Source of the DNA: Propionicimonas sp.
GTDB lineage: Bacteria; Actinomycetota; Actinomycetes; Propionibacteriales; Propionibacteriaceae
Length of the DNA: 64,000 nucleotides
Reading direction: 5' to 3'
NCBI RefSeq assembly: GCF_029975155.1
Contig: NZ_JARKPQ010000342.1
Location: 1-64,000 of the forward strand
Positions 49,376-59,420 of this stretch are shown in pieces. Both the position numbers and the translations under genes were made by a program. Each line of letters begins with the position of its first letter. Position 1 is the first letter of the stretch. The notes beneath the pieces were generated by a model, which saw only the letters and a program-made list of their open reading frames with translations, was not told the DNA's origin and ran no database searches.

Positions 49376-51607
49376 ATGAGCAGCGAAGCGGTGGCGTCCG
49401 GGGCGGGCAAGCGGATCGGCATCCTGACCAGCGGCGGCGATGCCCAGGGCATGAACGCGGCGGTGCGCGCGGTCGTCCGCACGGCCGTCTCGCTCGGCGC
49501 ACGGGTGTTCGCGGTCTACGAGGGCTATCAGGGCATGGTGGACGGCGGGACGGGCATCCGCGAGCTGGCCTGGGAGGACGTCGGCAGCATCCTGCACCGG
49601 GGCGGGACGATGATCGGCACCTTCCGCTCCAAGGACTTCCGCGAACGGGACGGCCGCCGCCGGGCCGCGCGCAATCTGCTCGAGCACGGCATCGACCGGC
49701 TCGTCGTGATCGGCGGGGACGGGTCCCTCTCCGGCCTCGACCAGTTCCGCGCGGAGTGGCCCGAACTGCTGGCCGAGCTGGTCGCGTCCGGTGAGCTGAG
49801 CCAGGAGGTCGCGGACGCGCACCCCGCGCTGATGTTCGCCGGTCTGGTCGGCTCCATCGACAACGACCTCGTCGGCACCGACATGACCATCGGCGCCGAC
49901 TCCGCCCTGCACCGGATCGTGGACGCCATCGACGCCCTGTCCAGCACCGCGGCCAGCCATCAACGCAGCTTCGTGGTCGAGGTGATGGGCCGCCACTGCG
50001 GCTACCTGGCGCTGATGAGCGCGATCGCCGGCGGCTGTGACTACGTACTCCTGCCGGAGAACCCGCCCGAGCCGGGCTGGGAGCAGCGGATGTGCACGGC
50101 ACTCCACCGTGGCCGGGCGGCGGGACGCCGTGACTCCCTCGTCGTGGTCGCCGAGGGTGCCTGCGACCGCGAGGGGCGGCCGATCACGTCCGCGTACGTG
50201 CGGCAGGTGATCGAGGACCAGCTGCACGAGGACGCCCGGGTGACCATCCTCGGCCACGTGCAGCGCGGCGGCGCGCCGAGCGCGTACGACCGCTGGGCGT
50301 CCACCTGGCTGGGCTACGAGGCGACCCGCGAGGTGCTGGCCGCCACCCCCGACACCGCGGGACCGGTGCTCGGCTTCAAGGGCAACCGGGTGACGCGGGT
50401 GCCGCTGGTGGAGGCCGTGGCGAAGACACGTCAGGTGCCGGAGCTGATCGCCGCCGGCGACTTCGAGGCGGCGATGGCGATGCGTGGGGGCTCGTTCAGC
50501 GAGGCGTCCCGGATCTTCGCCGAACTGGTGGAGCCGAGCCGGATCGACGCGCCCGAGGCATCGAAGCGGATCGCGGTGATCCACGCCGGTGGTCTCGCCC
50601 CCGGCATGAACGCCGCCGCCAGGGACGCCGTCCGGCTGGGGATCAGCCGCGGCCACACCATGCTCGGTGTGCAGGACGGCTTCCCGGGGCTGCGGGACGG
50701 CCGGATCAGCGAGCTGACCTGGGGTGATGTGGAGGGCTGGCTGACGGACGGCGGGGCTGATCTGGGCGTGCGGCGGACCGTCCCCACGGTGGAGGAGCTG
50801 TACCGGATCAGCCGGTCGATCGAGGACCACCACATCGACGCGCTGCTGATGATCGGCGGCTGGAACGGCTACCAGGCCGCCGAGCTGCTGCACCGCGAGC
50901 AGGACCGGTTCCCGGCCTGCGGCCTGCCGATCGTGTGCCTGCCGGCGTCCATCGACAACAACCTGCCGGGCTCGGAACTGGCGATCGGCACGGACACCGC
51001 GCTGAACGTGATCGTCGAGGCCGTGGACCGGATCAAGATGTCCGGCAGCGCGGCCAAGCGGGCGTTCGTGGTGGAGACGATGGGCCGCTACTGCGGCTAC
51101 CTCGCCCTGATGGGCGCGCTCGCCGGAGGCGCCGAGCGGGTCTACCTGCACGAGGAGGGGATCAGCCTCACCGCGCTGGTCGACGACCTGGAGTGGCTGC
51201 GGAACAGCTTCGCGTCCGGGCGCAAGCTGTTCCTCGCCATCCGCAACGAGAACGCCAACCCGCTCTACACCACCGACTTCCTCGCCCGGCTGCTGGAGCA
51301 GGAGGGCCAGGGGCTGTACGACGTGCGGCAGAACATCCTCGGCCATGTGCAGCAGGGCGGCTGCCCCACCCCGTTCGACCGGCTGCTGGCCGTGCGGCTG
51401 GTCTCCCGGGCGCTGGACCTGATCGGTGCGGAGTTCACCGCCGGGACGTCCGAGAGCTGGTACCTCGGGCTGGTGCAGTCGAAGGTGGCGGCGTTCCCGA
51501 TGAGCCAGATGACCGCCGAGATGGACCTTCGCTACCGCCGGCCGAAGGAGCAGTGGTGGCTCGCCCTGCGTCCGGTGATGAAGGCGGTCGCGGACGCCGC
51601 CGTCTGA
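49376..51607 (+). CDS. pfkA: Tandem-fused 6-phosphofructokinase
   Basis: 743 residues, two PFK domains in one chain, like animal and fungal PFK. The N-terminal half keeps a full catalytic set: GILTSGGDAQGMNAAVRA, VIGGDGSLSG, VGSIDNDLVGTDMTIGADSA and ILGHVQRGGAPSAYDR. Gly in GGDGS and in GSIDND indicates ATP, not pyrophosphate, as donor. In the C-terminal half the equivalents are IGGWNGYQ and ASIDNNLPGSELAIGTDTA, so the catalytic Asp residues are lost and this half is probably regulatory. It phosphorylates fructose 6-phosphate. ATG 49376 lies after the family A repeats. Confidence 0.93.
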   Translation: MSSEAVASGAGKRIGILTSGGDAQGMNAAVRAVVRTAVSLGARVFAVYEGYQGMVDGGTGIRELAWEDVGSILHRGGTMIGTFRSKDFRERDGRRRAARNLLEHGIDRLVVIGGDGSLSGLDQFRAEWPELLAELVASGELSQEVADAHPALMFAGLVGSIDNDLVGTDMTIGADSALHRIVDAIDALSSTAASHQRSFVVEVMGRHCGYLALMSAIAGGCDYVLLPENPPEPGWEQRMCTALHRGRAAGRRDSLVVVAEGACDREGRPITSAYVRQVIEDQLHEDARVTILGHVQRGGAPSAYDRWASTWLGYEATREVLAATPDTAGPVLGFKGNRVTRVPLVEAVAKTRQVPELIAAGDFEAAMAMRGGSFSEASRIFAELVEPSRIDAPEASKRIAVIHAGGLAPGMNAAARDAVRLGISRGHTMLGVQDGFPGLRDGRISELTWGDVEGWLTDGGADLGVRRTVPTVEELYRISRSIEDHHIDALLMIGGWNGYQAAELLHREQDRFPACGLPIVCLPASIDNNLPGSELAIGTDTALNVIVEAVDRIKMSGSAAKRAFVVETMGRYCGYLALMGALAGGAERVYLHEEGISLTALVDDLEWLRNSFASGRKLFLAIRNENANPLYTTDFLARLLEQEGQGLYDVRQNILGHVQQGGCPTPFDRLLAVRLVSRALDLIGAEFTAGTSESWYLGLVQSKVAAFPMSQMTAEMDLRYRRPKEQWWLALRPVMKAVADAAV

Positions 51608-55840: not shown

Positions 55841-57211
55841 TCAGCCGAGGCGTTCGCGCCAGCCGGGGTAGAGGGTGTCGGCGTCGGCGGGGAAGGACTC
55901 GAAGGCGCGGGCGAACTCGCGGTGGTCCCTGGCCCACTCGATCGGGTCGGCGCCGGCTTCCCAGCACTGGTGGGCCTGGCGCAGTGACCGGGCACCGGCG
56001 GCCGGGCCGTCCAGGTGGCCGTAGGAGCCGCCGCCGGCGGTGTTGATGATGTTCGCGTGGCCGAGGTTGGCGAAGAAGCCGGGCAGCCGCAGCGCGTTCA
56101 TGCCACCGGAGACGATCGGGACGGTCGGACGCATCCCGTACCACTCCTGGTGGTAGGCCGGGCCGGTGTAGGAGTCCCGCTCGATGATGTAGGCGATCGC
56201 CCGGTCGTCCGCGGCGCCCTCCATCTTCCCGTGGCCCATCGTGCCCACATGGATGCCGGACGCGCCCTGCAGCCGCGCCATCTTCGCCAGCACGTAGGCG
56301 TTGTAGCCCCGCTTCGACGACGGCGAGGTGACCATGCCGTGGCCGGCGCGGTGGTAGTGCAGGAACTGCCGCGGGAAGTAGCGGCGGACGGTGGTCACCA
56401 TGCCCGGGCCACCGACGAACCCGTCCACCAGGAAGGCCACCTTGTCCGCGTCCGGGCCGAACACCGAAAGGATGAACTCGCCCCTGGCGATCATCTCTGC
56501 ATGGTCGTCGGCGGTGATGTTCGCGCTGAACAGCTTGGCCTCGCCGGTCTCGTCCATCGCCCGCTTCATCGCGTCGTACACCAGCGGGATCGTCTCCCGC
56601 AGCGGCGCGAACACCTGGTTGCCCTGCGGCTCGTCGTTCTTGATGAAGTCCCCGCCCAGCCAGAACTCGTAGGCGGCCTTCGCGAACGGCTCCGGCCGCA
56701 GGCCCAGCTTCGGCTTGATGATCGTCCCGGCGATGTAGCCACCGTCGACCACCGGCCGGCCCAGCACCCGCCACAGGTCCGCGATCCCCTTCTCCGGCCC
56801 ATCGAACAGCTCGATCGCCCGCCGCGGCACCCAGAAGTCGTACATCTTGGCGTACTCGATGTCGCCCATGCCCTGGTTGTTGCCGATCGTCAGGGTCAGG
56901 AACGACACCATCATCATCCGGCCGTCGACGATGTTCCGGTCGAACAGGCCCAGCGGGTACGCGATCCGCACCTCCTCGGTCGCCTCGTCCGCCAGGTACA
57001 CCAGCGCGTCGAAGCCCTTGGTGAAGTCGTCCGTGGTCGACACCTCGACGTTGGTGCCCGTCGACGACTCGGCGGCGAAGTGCGCCGCGGCCTCCAGGAA
57101 CCCCACCCCGGCCTTCGGCTTCAGCTTGTACGCGCACAGGATGTGCTGGCCGCCGGCGACGAGGTCATCCTCGCGCAGGCTCAGATCGGCGTAACGGGCG
57201 GACTGGTCCAC
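55841..57211 (-). CDS. cbbM: Ribulose-1,5-bisphosphate carboxylase/oxygenase, form II
   Basis: 456 residues, co-linear with form II RuBisCO of Rhodospirillum rubrum from the very start ([20 protein letters not shown]). The catalytic residues are intact: Lys in [12 protein letters not shown], the carbamylated Lys and metal ligands in [14 protein letters not shown], His in [14 protein letters not shown], loop 6 Lys in [14 protein letters not shown], Ser in [12 protein letters not shown], and phosphate-binding [14 protein letters not shown]. No small subunit is needed. GTG 57211 has AAGGAG upstream and matches the conserved N-terminus; longer forms add unlike sequence. Divergent from the FBPase-like and PRK genes. 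Confidence 0.96.
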
Positions 57212-57468
57212 TTCGAACTCCTTCGCGGGGGCCTGCTGCGGGCGCCTTCGCCCGGGGGAGTCAGGCGAGCGGGGGCTGGATCCCGGCTCACTGACGATGC
57301 TAGTGCGGGGGTGCCGGCTCGCAGGCGGTGTGGACACAACCCCGACGTCTGGCCGGACGTGCTACCACACTCTGCACAGATGTCACGACTCATGGGCAAC
57401 GGCTCCCCGCGACAGCCGCGCCGCTAGTCTCCCGTTCGTAGCCGAATGGACGGCGAGGAGGCAGCACT
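57212..57468. promoter_or_regulatory. Divergent control region of the Calvin-cycle genes
   Basis: The 257 bases between the RuBisCO and FBPase-like starts must hold both promoters. I see no CbbR gene in the window and no convincing LysR-type operator here, though the DNA around 57355-57395 (cgtgctaccacactctgc) is the least GC-rich part. An in-frame Cys-containing stretch on the minus strand is not convincing as a gene. Confidence 0.5.
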
Positions 57469-58518
57469 GTGGCCGCACGGACGCTCACGCAGTACCTGCT
57501 GGACGTCGGACGCCCCGACGAACGCCGCAACGACTACACCCACATCCTCAGCGCCGTCGCGGTGACGATGAAGCTCACCGCGGCGATGGTCAGCAGGGGT
57601 CCGCTGATCCTGGACGCCGCGACGCAGGCCGCGTCCCCGACGCGCCGGGACGTGAACCGCGCGCTGCGCCGGCTGACCACGAAGACCCTGCTCGCGCAGA
57701 CCGAGGACATCGAACCGCTCGCCGCGATCTCCGTCGCCGGCAGCCAGGCCATCCGCCCGGTCTCCCCCACCGGGCGCTACCTGCTGCTGTTCGAGGGACT
57801 GCACGGCGTGGGCAACCTGGCCGACAACCTGCCGGCGGGATCGGTGTTCTCCGTCCTCGAGCTGCCGCCGCACGACGGTCCGGTCACCGAGCAGGACTTC
57901 CTGCAGCCGGGCACCGCGCAGGTCGCGGCGGGCATCTCGCTGTACGGCTCCCGGACGGTGCTGGTGCTGACCACGGGCACCGGTGTGGACGGCTTCACAC
58001 TCGACCGGGACGTGGGCAACTTCGTGCTCACCCACCCGCAGCTGCGGATCCCGGCGGAAGCCGACGTGTTCTCGATCAACGCCGCCGACGCGCCGCACTG
58101 GCCGGCTCCGGTGAAGCGGTACGTCGAGGAGTGCGTGCTCGGCGTGGACGGGCCGCGCGGCCACGACTTCAAGATGCGCTGGAACGCGTCCGCGCTGGTC
58201 GGGGCGTTCCGGGTGCTGAACTCCGGTGGGCTGTTCCTCGTCCCCGACACCGGCCGGACATCCGGCTGGCTGGCGCCGGTGCTGCACAACGCCGCCCCGC
58301 TCGCGATGCTGGCCGAGCAGGCCGGGGGCGCGGCCAGCACCGGGGGCCGGCGCGTGCTGGAGGTCGTGCCCGGGACCCTCGACGAGCGGGGGCCGATCTT
58401 CCTCGGCAGCGCCGGCGAGGTCGCCCGGCTGGAGCGCTACGTCGAGGAGCACGAGCAGGGCCGCGACGAGGAGTTCGAGCACCCCCTGTTCCACAACCGC
58501 ACCCTGTTCGCCGACTAG
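57469..58518 (+). CDS. Class I fructose-1,6-bisphosphatase homologue with degenerate metal site
   Basis: 349 residues in the usual CbbF operon position, recognisable by length and the blocks YGSRTVLVLTTGTGVDGFTL, NFVLTHPQLRIPAEADVFSI, RWNASALVGAFRVLNSGGLF and LAMLAEQAGGAASTGGRRVL. The catalytic core is different. The usual EE pair after VAAIASEE is replaced (AAISVAGSQA). FDPLDGSSN is FEGLHGVGN, so the two metal-binding Asp become Glu and His. The KKLDVLSN metal Asp is also gone (NRALRRLTTK). Only the Glu of the AEQAGG segment remains. It may be inactive, regulatory or act on another substrate. GTG 57469 follows GAGGAGGCAG. PRK starts 12 bases downstream. Confidence 0.85.
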   Translation: MAARTLTQYLLDVGRPDERRNDYTHILSAVAVTMKLTAAMVSRGPLILDAATQAASPTRRDVNRALRRLTTKTLLAQTEDIEPLAAISVAGSQAIRPVSPTGRYLLLFEGLHGVGNLADNLPAGSVFSVLELPPHDGPVTEQDFLQPGTAQVAAGISLYGSRTVLVLTTGTGVDGFTLDRDVGNFVLTHPQLRIPAEADVFSINAADAPHWPAPVKRYVEECVLGVDGPRGHDFKMRWNASALVGAFRVLNSGGLFLVPDTGRTSGWLAPVLHNAAPLAMLAEQAGGAASTGGRRVLEVVPGTLDERGPIFLGSAGEVARLERYVEEHEQGRDEEFEHPLFHNRTLFAD

Positions 58519-58529
58519 GAGGAGAGACA

Positions 58530-59420
58530 GTGTCACGCGCGCATCCGGTGGTGGCGATCACGGGCTCGTCGGGAGCAGGGACGAGCACGATCACCGACAC
58601 CTTCGCCCAGATCTTCGCCCGCGAGGGGGTCACCTCGGCGGTCGTGCACGGCGACTCGTTCCACCGCTACGACCGGGCGGGCATGAAGCAGGCCTACGCC
58701 GAGGCCGCGGCGTCCGGCAAGCCCGAACTCAGCCACTTCGGGCCGGACGCGAACCTGTTCGCAGAGCTCGAGGAGCTGTTCCGCCAGTACGGCAGGGACG
58801 GCACCGGCCGCACCCGCAACTACGTCCACGATGCGGAGGAGTCCGTCCAGTTCGGCCAGGAGCCCGGCACCTTCACCCCGTGGGAACCCCTGCCCGAGGG
58901 CACCGACCTGCTCTACTACGAGGGCCTGCACGGCGCCGTCAAGACCGACACCGTCGACCTCGCCAAGCACGTCGACCTGCTGATCGGGGTGGTGCCGATC
59001 ATCAACCTGGAGTGGATCCAGAAGCTGCACCGCGACCGGACCAAGCGCGGCTACTCCACCGAGGCCGTCACGGACACCATCCTGCGCCGCATGCCGGACT
59101 ACGTGCACTACATCTGCCCGCAGTTCAGCCGCACCCACATCAACTTCCAGCGGGTGCCGGTGGTGGACACCTCCAACCCGTTCATCGCCCGCTGGATCCC
59201 CACGCCCGACGAGTCCATGGTCGTGATCCGGTTCGCCGACCCCCGCGGGATCGACTTCCCCTACCTGCGCTCGATGATCGACGGCTCGTTCATGTCCCGG
59301 GCCAACAGCATCGTCATCCCCGGCGGCAAGCTCGACCTCGCCATGCAGTTGATCTTCACCCCGCTGATCTGGCGACTCGTCGACAACGCCCGCAAGGAGA
59401 AGGTGCGCGGCCGCAGCTGA
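58530..59420 (+). CDS. prkB: Phosphoribulokinase, proteobacterial type
   Basis: 296 residues of class I phosphoribulokinase, which makes ribulose 1,5-bisphosphate for RuBisCO. The P-loop is ITGSSGAGTSTITDTFA. Catalytic and substrate residues are intact: HGDSFHRYDRAGMKQA, LLYYEGLHGAVKT, EWIQKLHRDRTKRGYSTEA, and VPVVDTSNPFIARWIPTPDE. The size and motifs match the octameric proteobacterial enzymes, not plant or cyanobacterial PRK. GTG 58530 follows AGGAGGAGAGA, 11 bases after the FBPase-like stop, so both are in one operon divergent from cbbM. Confidence 0.95.
   Translation: MSRAHPVVAITGSSGAGTSTITDTFAQIFAREGVTSAVVHGDSFHRYDRAGMKQAYAEAAASGKPELSHFGPDANLFAELEELFRQYGRDGTGRTRNYVHDAEESVQFGQEPGTFTPWEPLPEGTDLLYYEGLHGAVKTDTVDLAKHVDLLIGVVPIINLEWIQKLHRDRTKRGYSTEAVTDTILRRMPDYVHYICPQFSRTHINFQRVPVVDTSNPFIARWIPTPDESMVVIRFADPRGIDFPYLRSMIDGSFMSRANSIVIPGGKLDLAMQLIFTPLIWRLVDNARKEKVRGRS

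Follow-up and report, generated by a model that had tools for sequence, protein, structure and literature searches.

We found that the FBPase-like gene of a Calvin operon in the window (the whole stretch of 64,000 nucleotides of Propionicimonas sp. DNA that was analysed) belongs to a clade of apparent pseudoenzymes which, judged from sequence comparison, descends from CbbF and sits within a three-gene module with RuBisCO and phosphoribulokinase (PRK). The reading that we favour, with a probability of about 0.55, is that this CbbF pseudoenzyme is kept as a non-catalytic PRK/RuBisCO partner, with PPi-PFK covering FBP dephosphorylation. The retention of a dead phosphatase suggests that it now has a non-enzymatic job and that its old reaction is carried out by another enzyme.

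An FBPase homologue that has lost most of its active-site acids

The gene lies in the following locus.

55841..57337, minus strand: form II RuBisCO large chain, divergent (NF010002, 863.1 bits, cut-off 489)
57338..57468, no strand: intergenic region separating the RuBisCO ORF from the divergently oriented pseudo-FBPase ORF (sequence)
57469..58518, plus strand: pseudo-FBPase, dead CbbF homologue, 349 aa (ORF, Pfam domains, alignment)
58530..59420, plus strand: phosphoribulokinase, class I, bacterial (NF011997, 502.5 bits, cut-off 362)

The PRK gene starts with GTG 12 nt past the pseudo-FBPase stop, at which there is a Shine-Dalgarno-like GGAGG. The RuBisCO ORF carries about 43 residues ahead of its family match, which begins at residue 44, and its true start probably lies downstream, near 57208.

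The pseudo-FBPase frame runs cleanly from a GTG at 57469 to the stop at 58518, with no internal stop. Its product matches the Pfam FBPase N domain (2e-27, 96.5 bits, cut-off 34.8) and C domain (1.9e-27, 96 bits, cut-off 27), and eight NCBIfam class 1 FBPase models match it, all under their cut-offs (best 262.2 against 349 bits). The AF2 model has a pLDDT of 87.3, and among the 50 Foldseek matches listed FBPases gave query-based TM scores of 0.77-0.85. By its sequence and predicted fold the protein is a class I FBPase by descent. Orthologues with 60-69% identity were found in 11 other genomes, giving 12 genomes in three genera of one family. A preliminary description of the gene, made from the DNA letters, had taken the clean frame to speak against a frameshift; the ORF is indeed uninterrupted, and because the 11 orthologues of other genomes carry identical replacements, a frameshift or sequencing error is ruled out.

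The window protein was placed in an alignment with 37 further FBPases, not all of them complete, with pig FBPase numbering, in which we take D68, D74, E97, E98, D118, D121 and E280 to be the metal/catalytic acids and N212, R243, Y/W244, Y264 and K/R274 to be the F6P-binding residues. In this alignment D68 corresponds to R67, D74 to Lys, E97 and E98 to A90 and G91, D121 to H112 and E280 to N274. The sole acid retained of the seven is E109 at the D118 position, a conservative Asp-to-Glu change. R276 has become P270 and Y264 has become V258; of the F6P-binding equivalents, N204, R237 and W238 are retained and those of Y264 and K/R274 are gone. The altered segments are as follows.

57667..57672, plus strand: R67-R68, both in 12/12 of the dead clade, at the place of the KLD Asp (D68) and the residue next to it
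57730..57741, plus strand: S88-V89-A90-G91, where intact FBPases end S-E-E (E97, E98; alignment)
57790..57816, plus strand: FEGLHGVGN, replacing FDPLDGSSN; H112 (D121) in 12/12 (alignment)
58276..58290, plus strand: PVLHN, replacing RLLYE; R276 and the ligand Glu E280 gone (alignment)
58315..58317, plus strand: the conserved Glu of EQAGG (E283), aligned with E289 (alignment)

With six of the seven metal/catalytic acids gone, the loss of nearly all metal-binding residues noticed in the preliminary description is real. It is also heavier than stated there. The EQAGG Glu, then named as the surviving ligand, aligns with E289, which in the pig enzyme is presumably no metal ligand, that part being played by the LYE Glu, and at the position of this true C-terminal ligand the window protein has Asn.

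The same pattern extends throughout all 12 pseudo-FBPases, where six of the seven metal/catalytic acid positions are non-acidic (basic or neutral). R67, G91, H112 and P270 are present in every sequence, the E280 position holds Asn or Thr, and the D118 position holds Glu in 10 and Asp in 2; equivalents of R243 and W244 are retained in all 12 and that of N212 in 10. Of 69 columns that never vary across 22 intact FBPases, the 12 pseudo-FBPases likewise keep 35 invariant, have lost 16 throughout and are mixed at 18. The lost columns comprise six of the seven scored as active-site against 10 of the 62 others (Fisher p = 4e-4); the seven (D68, E97, D118, D121, Y264, R276 and E280, of which D118 alone is not lost) are our own choice, and the R243 and W244 equivalents are counted among the 62. 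Besides these two residues, glycine-rich core motifs are kept. New invariants include R67, R68, G91, H112, N239, W267 and P270, several of them at former active-site segments. No new conserved acid that could supply a metal ligand was found near the lost positions in the 12 sequences, and no acid cluster is left at the former metal site. An exchange of acids for invariant Arg and His would fit the conversion of a cation site into an anion site. On this sequence evidence, a loss of FBPase catalysis in the clade is strongly supported.

In the AF2 model of the window protein, residues 116-120 of the former DGSSN loop have a pLDDT under 50. An intact Cupriavidus CbbF model, our single control, built with the same 38 sequences, has no under-50 segment in that loop, although the loop is weaker than the core there too. 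Mean pLDDT over 10-residue blocks was 57 in the dead model (111-120) against 88 (111-120) and 73 (121-130) in the intact one, a moderate difference.

A retained gene in a three-gene module

The 12 pseudo-FBPases make up one side of a single branch, supported at 100/100, whose stem measures 1.42 changes per site. All 12 reading frames are open (339-356 aa), and 105 of 349 positions are invariant among them. Searching 198 genomes of the family with the window protein, a query that may miss distant class I enzymes, gave matches in 32. A profile of the dead clade matched 33 of 391 genomes of the order, scoring at least 596 bits for 11 of the 12 pseudo-FBPases and at most 330.5 bits for anything else; the twelfth genome (G058) is absent among the genomes listed with a match. 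The profile also detected a dead-type fragment of 91 residues in G152 (151 bits) and lower-scoring pieces, not assigned to a class, in G153 (210 bits) and G084 (54 bits).

A search for close homologues beside form II RuBisCO and PRK, proposed along with the preliminary description, bore fruit: all 12 dead-FBPase loci adjoin both genes, in the order RuBisCO II, pseudo-FBPase, PRK, and a partial 13th locus (G152) holds the end of a pseudo-FBPase as well as PRK. RuBisCO is divergent in the five loci of one genus (g1) and co-directional in the four and three loci of the other two (g4 and g7). The flanking genes are common mainly within genera, with two weaker cross-genus matches. G143 and G152 each contain a dead-FBPase module (partial in G152), an intact cassette of FBPase and PRK, and three matches to RuBisCO, which may reflect two modules or mixed bins.

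Nei-Gojobori omega was 0.116, 0.121 and 0.160 for the three closest pairs of pseudo-FBPases and 0.25-0.54 for more distant pairs. Mean pN/pS over 66 pairs was 0.498, against 0.197 for RuBisCO and 0.262 for PRK. Low omega together with a pN/pS higher than that of the neighbours indicates that the gene is selected for, less tightly than they are; as estimated from these substitution ratios, it is under purifying selection with a looser constraint than RuBisCO and PRK. The initial view of a conserved but apparently dead FBPase is thus upheld, in the form of one clade of 12 with conserved gene order and purifying selection.

A SorC-type regulator with a Sugar-bind domain (PF04198, tested in L180) adjoins RuBisCO in g1 loci. 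It was called by Pfam in L180, by sequence in L183 and probably in L181 and L184, through a shared ORF of about 315 aa. The flanks of the remaining dead loci, that of the window among them, gave no match to it over stretches that reach 6 kb at most and are shorter in several cases.

The pseudo-FBPase resembles the CbbF of Calvin operons, such as that of Cupriavidus necator pHG1, in fold, in length, in its place just before PRK and in its PLFxxRxLF tail, and differs from it in having lost six of seven metal/catalytic acids, R276 and Y264; it is 42% identical to a Cupriavidus CbbF (L002). The tail is the following feature.

58483..58509, plus strand: C-terminal peptide PLFHNRTLF, PRK-linked FBPase tail (sequence, loci comparison)

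The pseudo-FBPases keep this PLFxxRxLF peptide, which matches the L[FY]xxRxL[FY] tail pattern of the CbbF lineage. It stands behind a variable linker and is strongly conserved, with a mean entropy of 0.30 against 1.32 (rank 18 of 341 windows; 12 sequences). In a survey of 109 loci, many of them near copies of each other, the pattern and a PRK within 3.5 kb occurred together in 36, made up of 22 intact, 2 eroded and 12 dead FBPases, one of the dead ones partial. Both were absent from 71, and the remaining two loci are exceptions: L012 has His for the Arg, and L106 lies at a contig end. Eight plasmid loci, which we chose from 227 matching records, had the tail in 5/5 cases with PRK and in 0/3 without. 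Of six further loci of the order, each with a PRK, all but L202, in which Phe takes the place of the first Leu, conform to the pattern. When the tree is computed with the tail residues left out, the tail maps to a single change (79/85). Because the tail behaves as a lineage marker, with a single change on the tree, its link with PRK counts as one event. We read the tail, from these comparisons, as a marker of the CbbF lineage and not as repeated evidence of PRK binding; with one tree change and many near-copy loci, its value as independent evidence for such binding is weakened. The Cupriavidus protein matched 39 FBPase sequences of solved structure, and the tail lies outside all of these matches, coverage ending by residue 336 of 355. 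AF2 confidence in the tail is low in the dead model and in the intact Cupriavidus model alike.

The sections consulted of PMC12999727 report form IA or II RuBisCO in Propionicicella and Propionicimonas, and those of PMC13286885 describe isolates of Propionicimonas and Tessaracoccus lapidicaptus with RuBisCO genes. The word 'bisphosphatase' is absent from the main text of PMC12999727, and in the portion of the open-access PMC literature covered by our searches we found no account of an inactivated FBPase within a Calvin operon.

Candidate sources of FBPase activity

The window genome has a single class I FBPase match, the dead one. The preliminary description had pointed to GlpX as an alternative source, a suggestion that fared poorly: GlpX was not found in the window genome and is present in one of the 12 dead-FBPase genomes (G143, partial). 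G143 is also the only one of the 12 with a second class I FBPase carrying an intact DP[LV]DG motif, and in the other 11 neither an intact class I FBPase nor GlpX was detected. Class III FBPase occurred in none of the 12, and class V was absent from the window genome, the one genome searched for it. Apart from GlpX in G143, these three classes were set aside as replacements, not having been found in the genomes searched. An IMPase-type FBPase was likewise rejected, as none of the four IMPase homologues in the window genome exceeds the bifunctional FBPase/IMPase cut-off.

At E <= 1e-60, 188 of the 198 genomes of the family have a PPi-PFK, among them 11 of the 12 that carry the dead FBPase. The one sequence examined for its signature, from G055, carries the motifs GGDDT and PKTIDND; the sections consulted of a 2025 phosphofructokinase review (PMC12203962) give GGDD as the PPi signature and describe PPi-PFK as easily reversible. 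The exception among the 12 is the window's own assembly (404 contigs, 8.3% contamination), in which none was found, including by PFK profile. This is likely an assembly gap, since 140 of the 141 family genomes of at least 90% completeness and at most 5% contamination carry the gene. PPi-PFK without a class I or II FBPase match, the class I query being the dead protein, occurs in 138 of the 198 family genomes. PPi-PFK also accompanies an intact class I FBPase in most of the family genomes that have the latter (for example G141, G192 and G076), and given this co-occurrence PPi-PFK permits the loss of FBPase but alone fails to explain its inactivation. We consider PPi-PFK, rather than GlpX, the likely source of FBPase flux.

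Two other phosphofructokinases are encoded in the window genome, one of them near the operon.

49391..51607, plus strand: fused two-domain eukaryote-type 6-phosphofructokinase (TIGR02478, 1002.6 bits, cut-off 708.4)

Its GGDGS motif and its eukaryotic ATP-type family rule it out as a PPi enzyme. A two-domain PFK fusion (open frame of at least 744 aa) occurs in 22 of 32 family genomes searched. The second enzyme (C313, L113) has GGGGT in place of GGDG/GGDD, together with PKTIDND, and scores above the cut-off of an ATP-dependent subfamily model.

According to the consulted sections of PMC12203962, the FBPase gene might be expected to be inactivated or lost where PPi-PFK is present, and whether PPi-PFK serves any organism as the primary enzyme in both directions has yet to be determined. 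A family with PPi-PFK yet an inactivated, retained Calvin-operon FBPase makes this question, as posed there, testable. Sedoheptulose 7-phosphate is given as a PPi-PFK substrate in part of PMC7029132.

The present module resembles the Frolov 2019 variant, in which PPi-PFK reportedly has a role alongside RuBisCO and PRK, in combining these three enzymes. It differs in that the FBPase gene is still present, inactivated, and in that the RuBisCO is form II instead of form III.

Possible roles of the retained protein

In the reading that we favour, FBP, and perhaps SBP, would be dephosphorylated by the reversible PPi-PFK of the family, and catalysis by CbbF would thereby have become dispensable. The pseudo-FBPase may then have been retained as a non-catalytic partner of the module. 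It could dock through its C-terminal tail, most likely on PRK or else on RuBisCO, and might report a sugar phosphate through the old active-site pocket, in which acids have been replaced by invariant Arg and His. It is probably a regulator or scaffold of PRK/RuBisCO. Pseudoenzymes that regulate their own pathway keep the ancestral fold, have lost catalytic residues and are maintained as genes, and the pseudo-FBPase is like them in all three respects; we found no FBPase example among them in the portions of the literature searched. CP12 is a PRK/GAPDH scaffold in phototrophs, and the proposed role is alike, CP12 being a small regulatory PRK partner, but the proteins are unrelated and the likeness is one of analogy only.

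A bolder version, which we put forward tentatively and think rather doubtful as a whole, would have the dead CbbF, a killed phosphatase, serve bacterial PRK or form II RuBisCO as a dedicated regulatory subunit, functionally analogous to CP12. The tail would dock, an Arg/His anion pocket at the former metal site would sense a sugar phosphate, and the cycle of this minimal RuBisCO-sensor-PRK module would run on PPi-PFK instead of FBPase, recovering pyrophosphate.

Other explanations would keep the protein an enzyme or give it a partner elsewhere. It is unlikely that it has become a phosphatase or other enzyme acting on a different substrate of the module, either with one metal held by E109 and H112 or metal-free. 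H112 in all 12 sequences, the acid at the D118 position (Glu in 10, Asp in 2), the R243 and W244 equivalents in 12/12 and that of N212 in 10/12 would fit such an enzyme; the equivalents of E97, E98, D74, E280 and R276 are all missing, however, and the 116-120 loop is poorly predicted (pLDDT under 50), unlike that of the intact control. A ligand-binding sensor whose target is neither PRK nor RuBisCO but, for instance, PPi-PFK or a transcription regulator would agree with the new invariant Arg and His at the former metal site and with the SorC-type sugar-binding regulator beside RuBisCO in g1. We hold this to be distinctly unlikely, as no SorC-type match was found in the flanks (up to 6 kb) of the window and the other dead loci, and the strict gene order points to a partner within the module.

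That the gene is simply decaying, kept merely by its position between two useful genes, seems very improbable: although it evolves faster than its neighbours and PPi-PFK could render its catalysis dispensable, all 12 copies are open at 339-356 aa, omega is 0.12-0.16 in close pairs and 105 of 349 positions are invariant among the 12. We give still less weight to an active FBPase relying on other residues, for which the retained (predicted) fold and part of the substrate pocket might be cited, because every one of the 12 sequences has basic or neutral residues at six of the seven acid positions and NCBIfam FBPase models stay under their cut-offs, with a best score of 262 of 349. An assembly or contamination artefact of the window bin, to which its contamination of 8.3% might lend some colour, is refuted by the presence of the same gene and neighbours in 11 other genomes, one of them (G136) a single contig.

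The dead CbbF is an uncharacterised candidate partner of RuBisCO/PRK, and genome surveys in which the dead gene is scored as FBPase would arrive at a falsely complete Calvin cycle.

Separate partial erosion was seen in two other PRK-linked FBPases, L105 (G122; E97D, E98K, S123A, S124R, Y264S, R276L and Y279P) and L102 (G072; D121N and Gly at D74), and G072 also has GlpX. Six same-genus FBPases, L106-L111 (from G138, G144, G141, G146, G139 and G142, respectively), have intact metal residues and a divergent N-terminal part, with Lys at D74 in 4/6 rows, and five of them group on a long stem of 1.46. Five records (L019, L046, L056, L063 and L064) are titled as Akkermansia muciniphila or Bordetella parapertussis MAGs amid Burkholderiales matches with similar scores, and these titles may be wrong.
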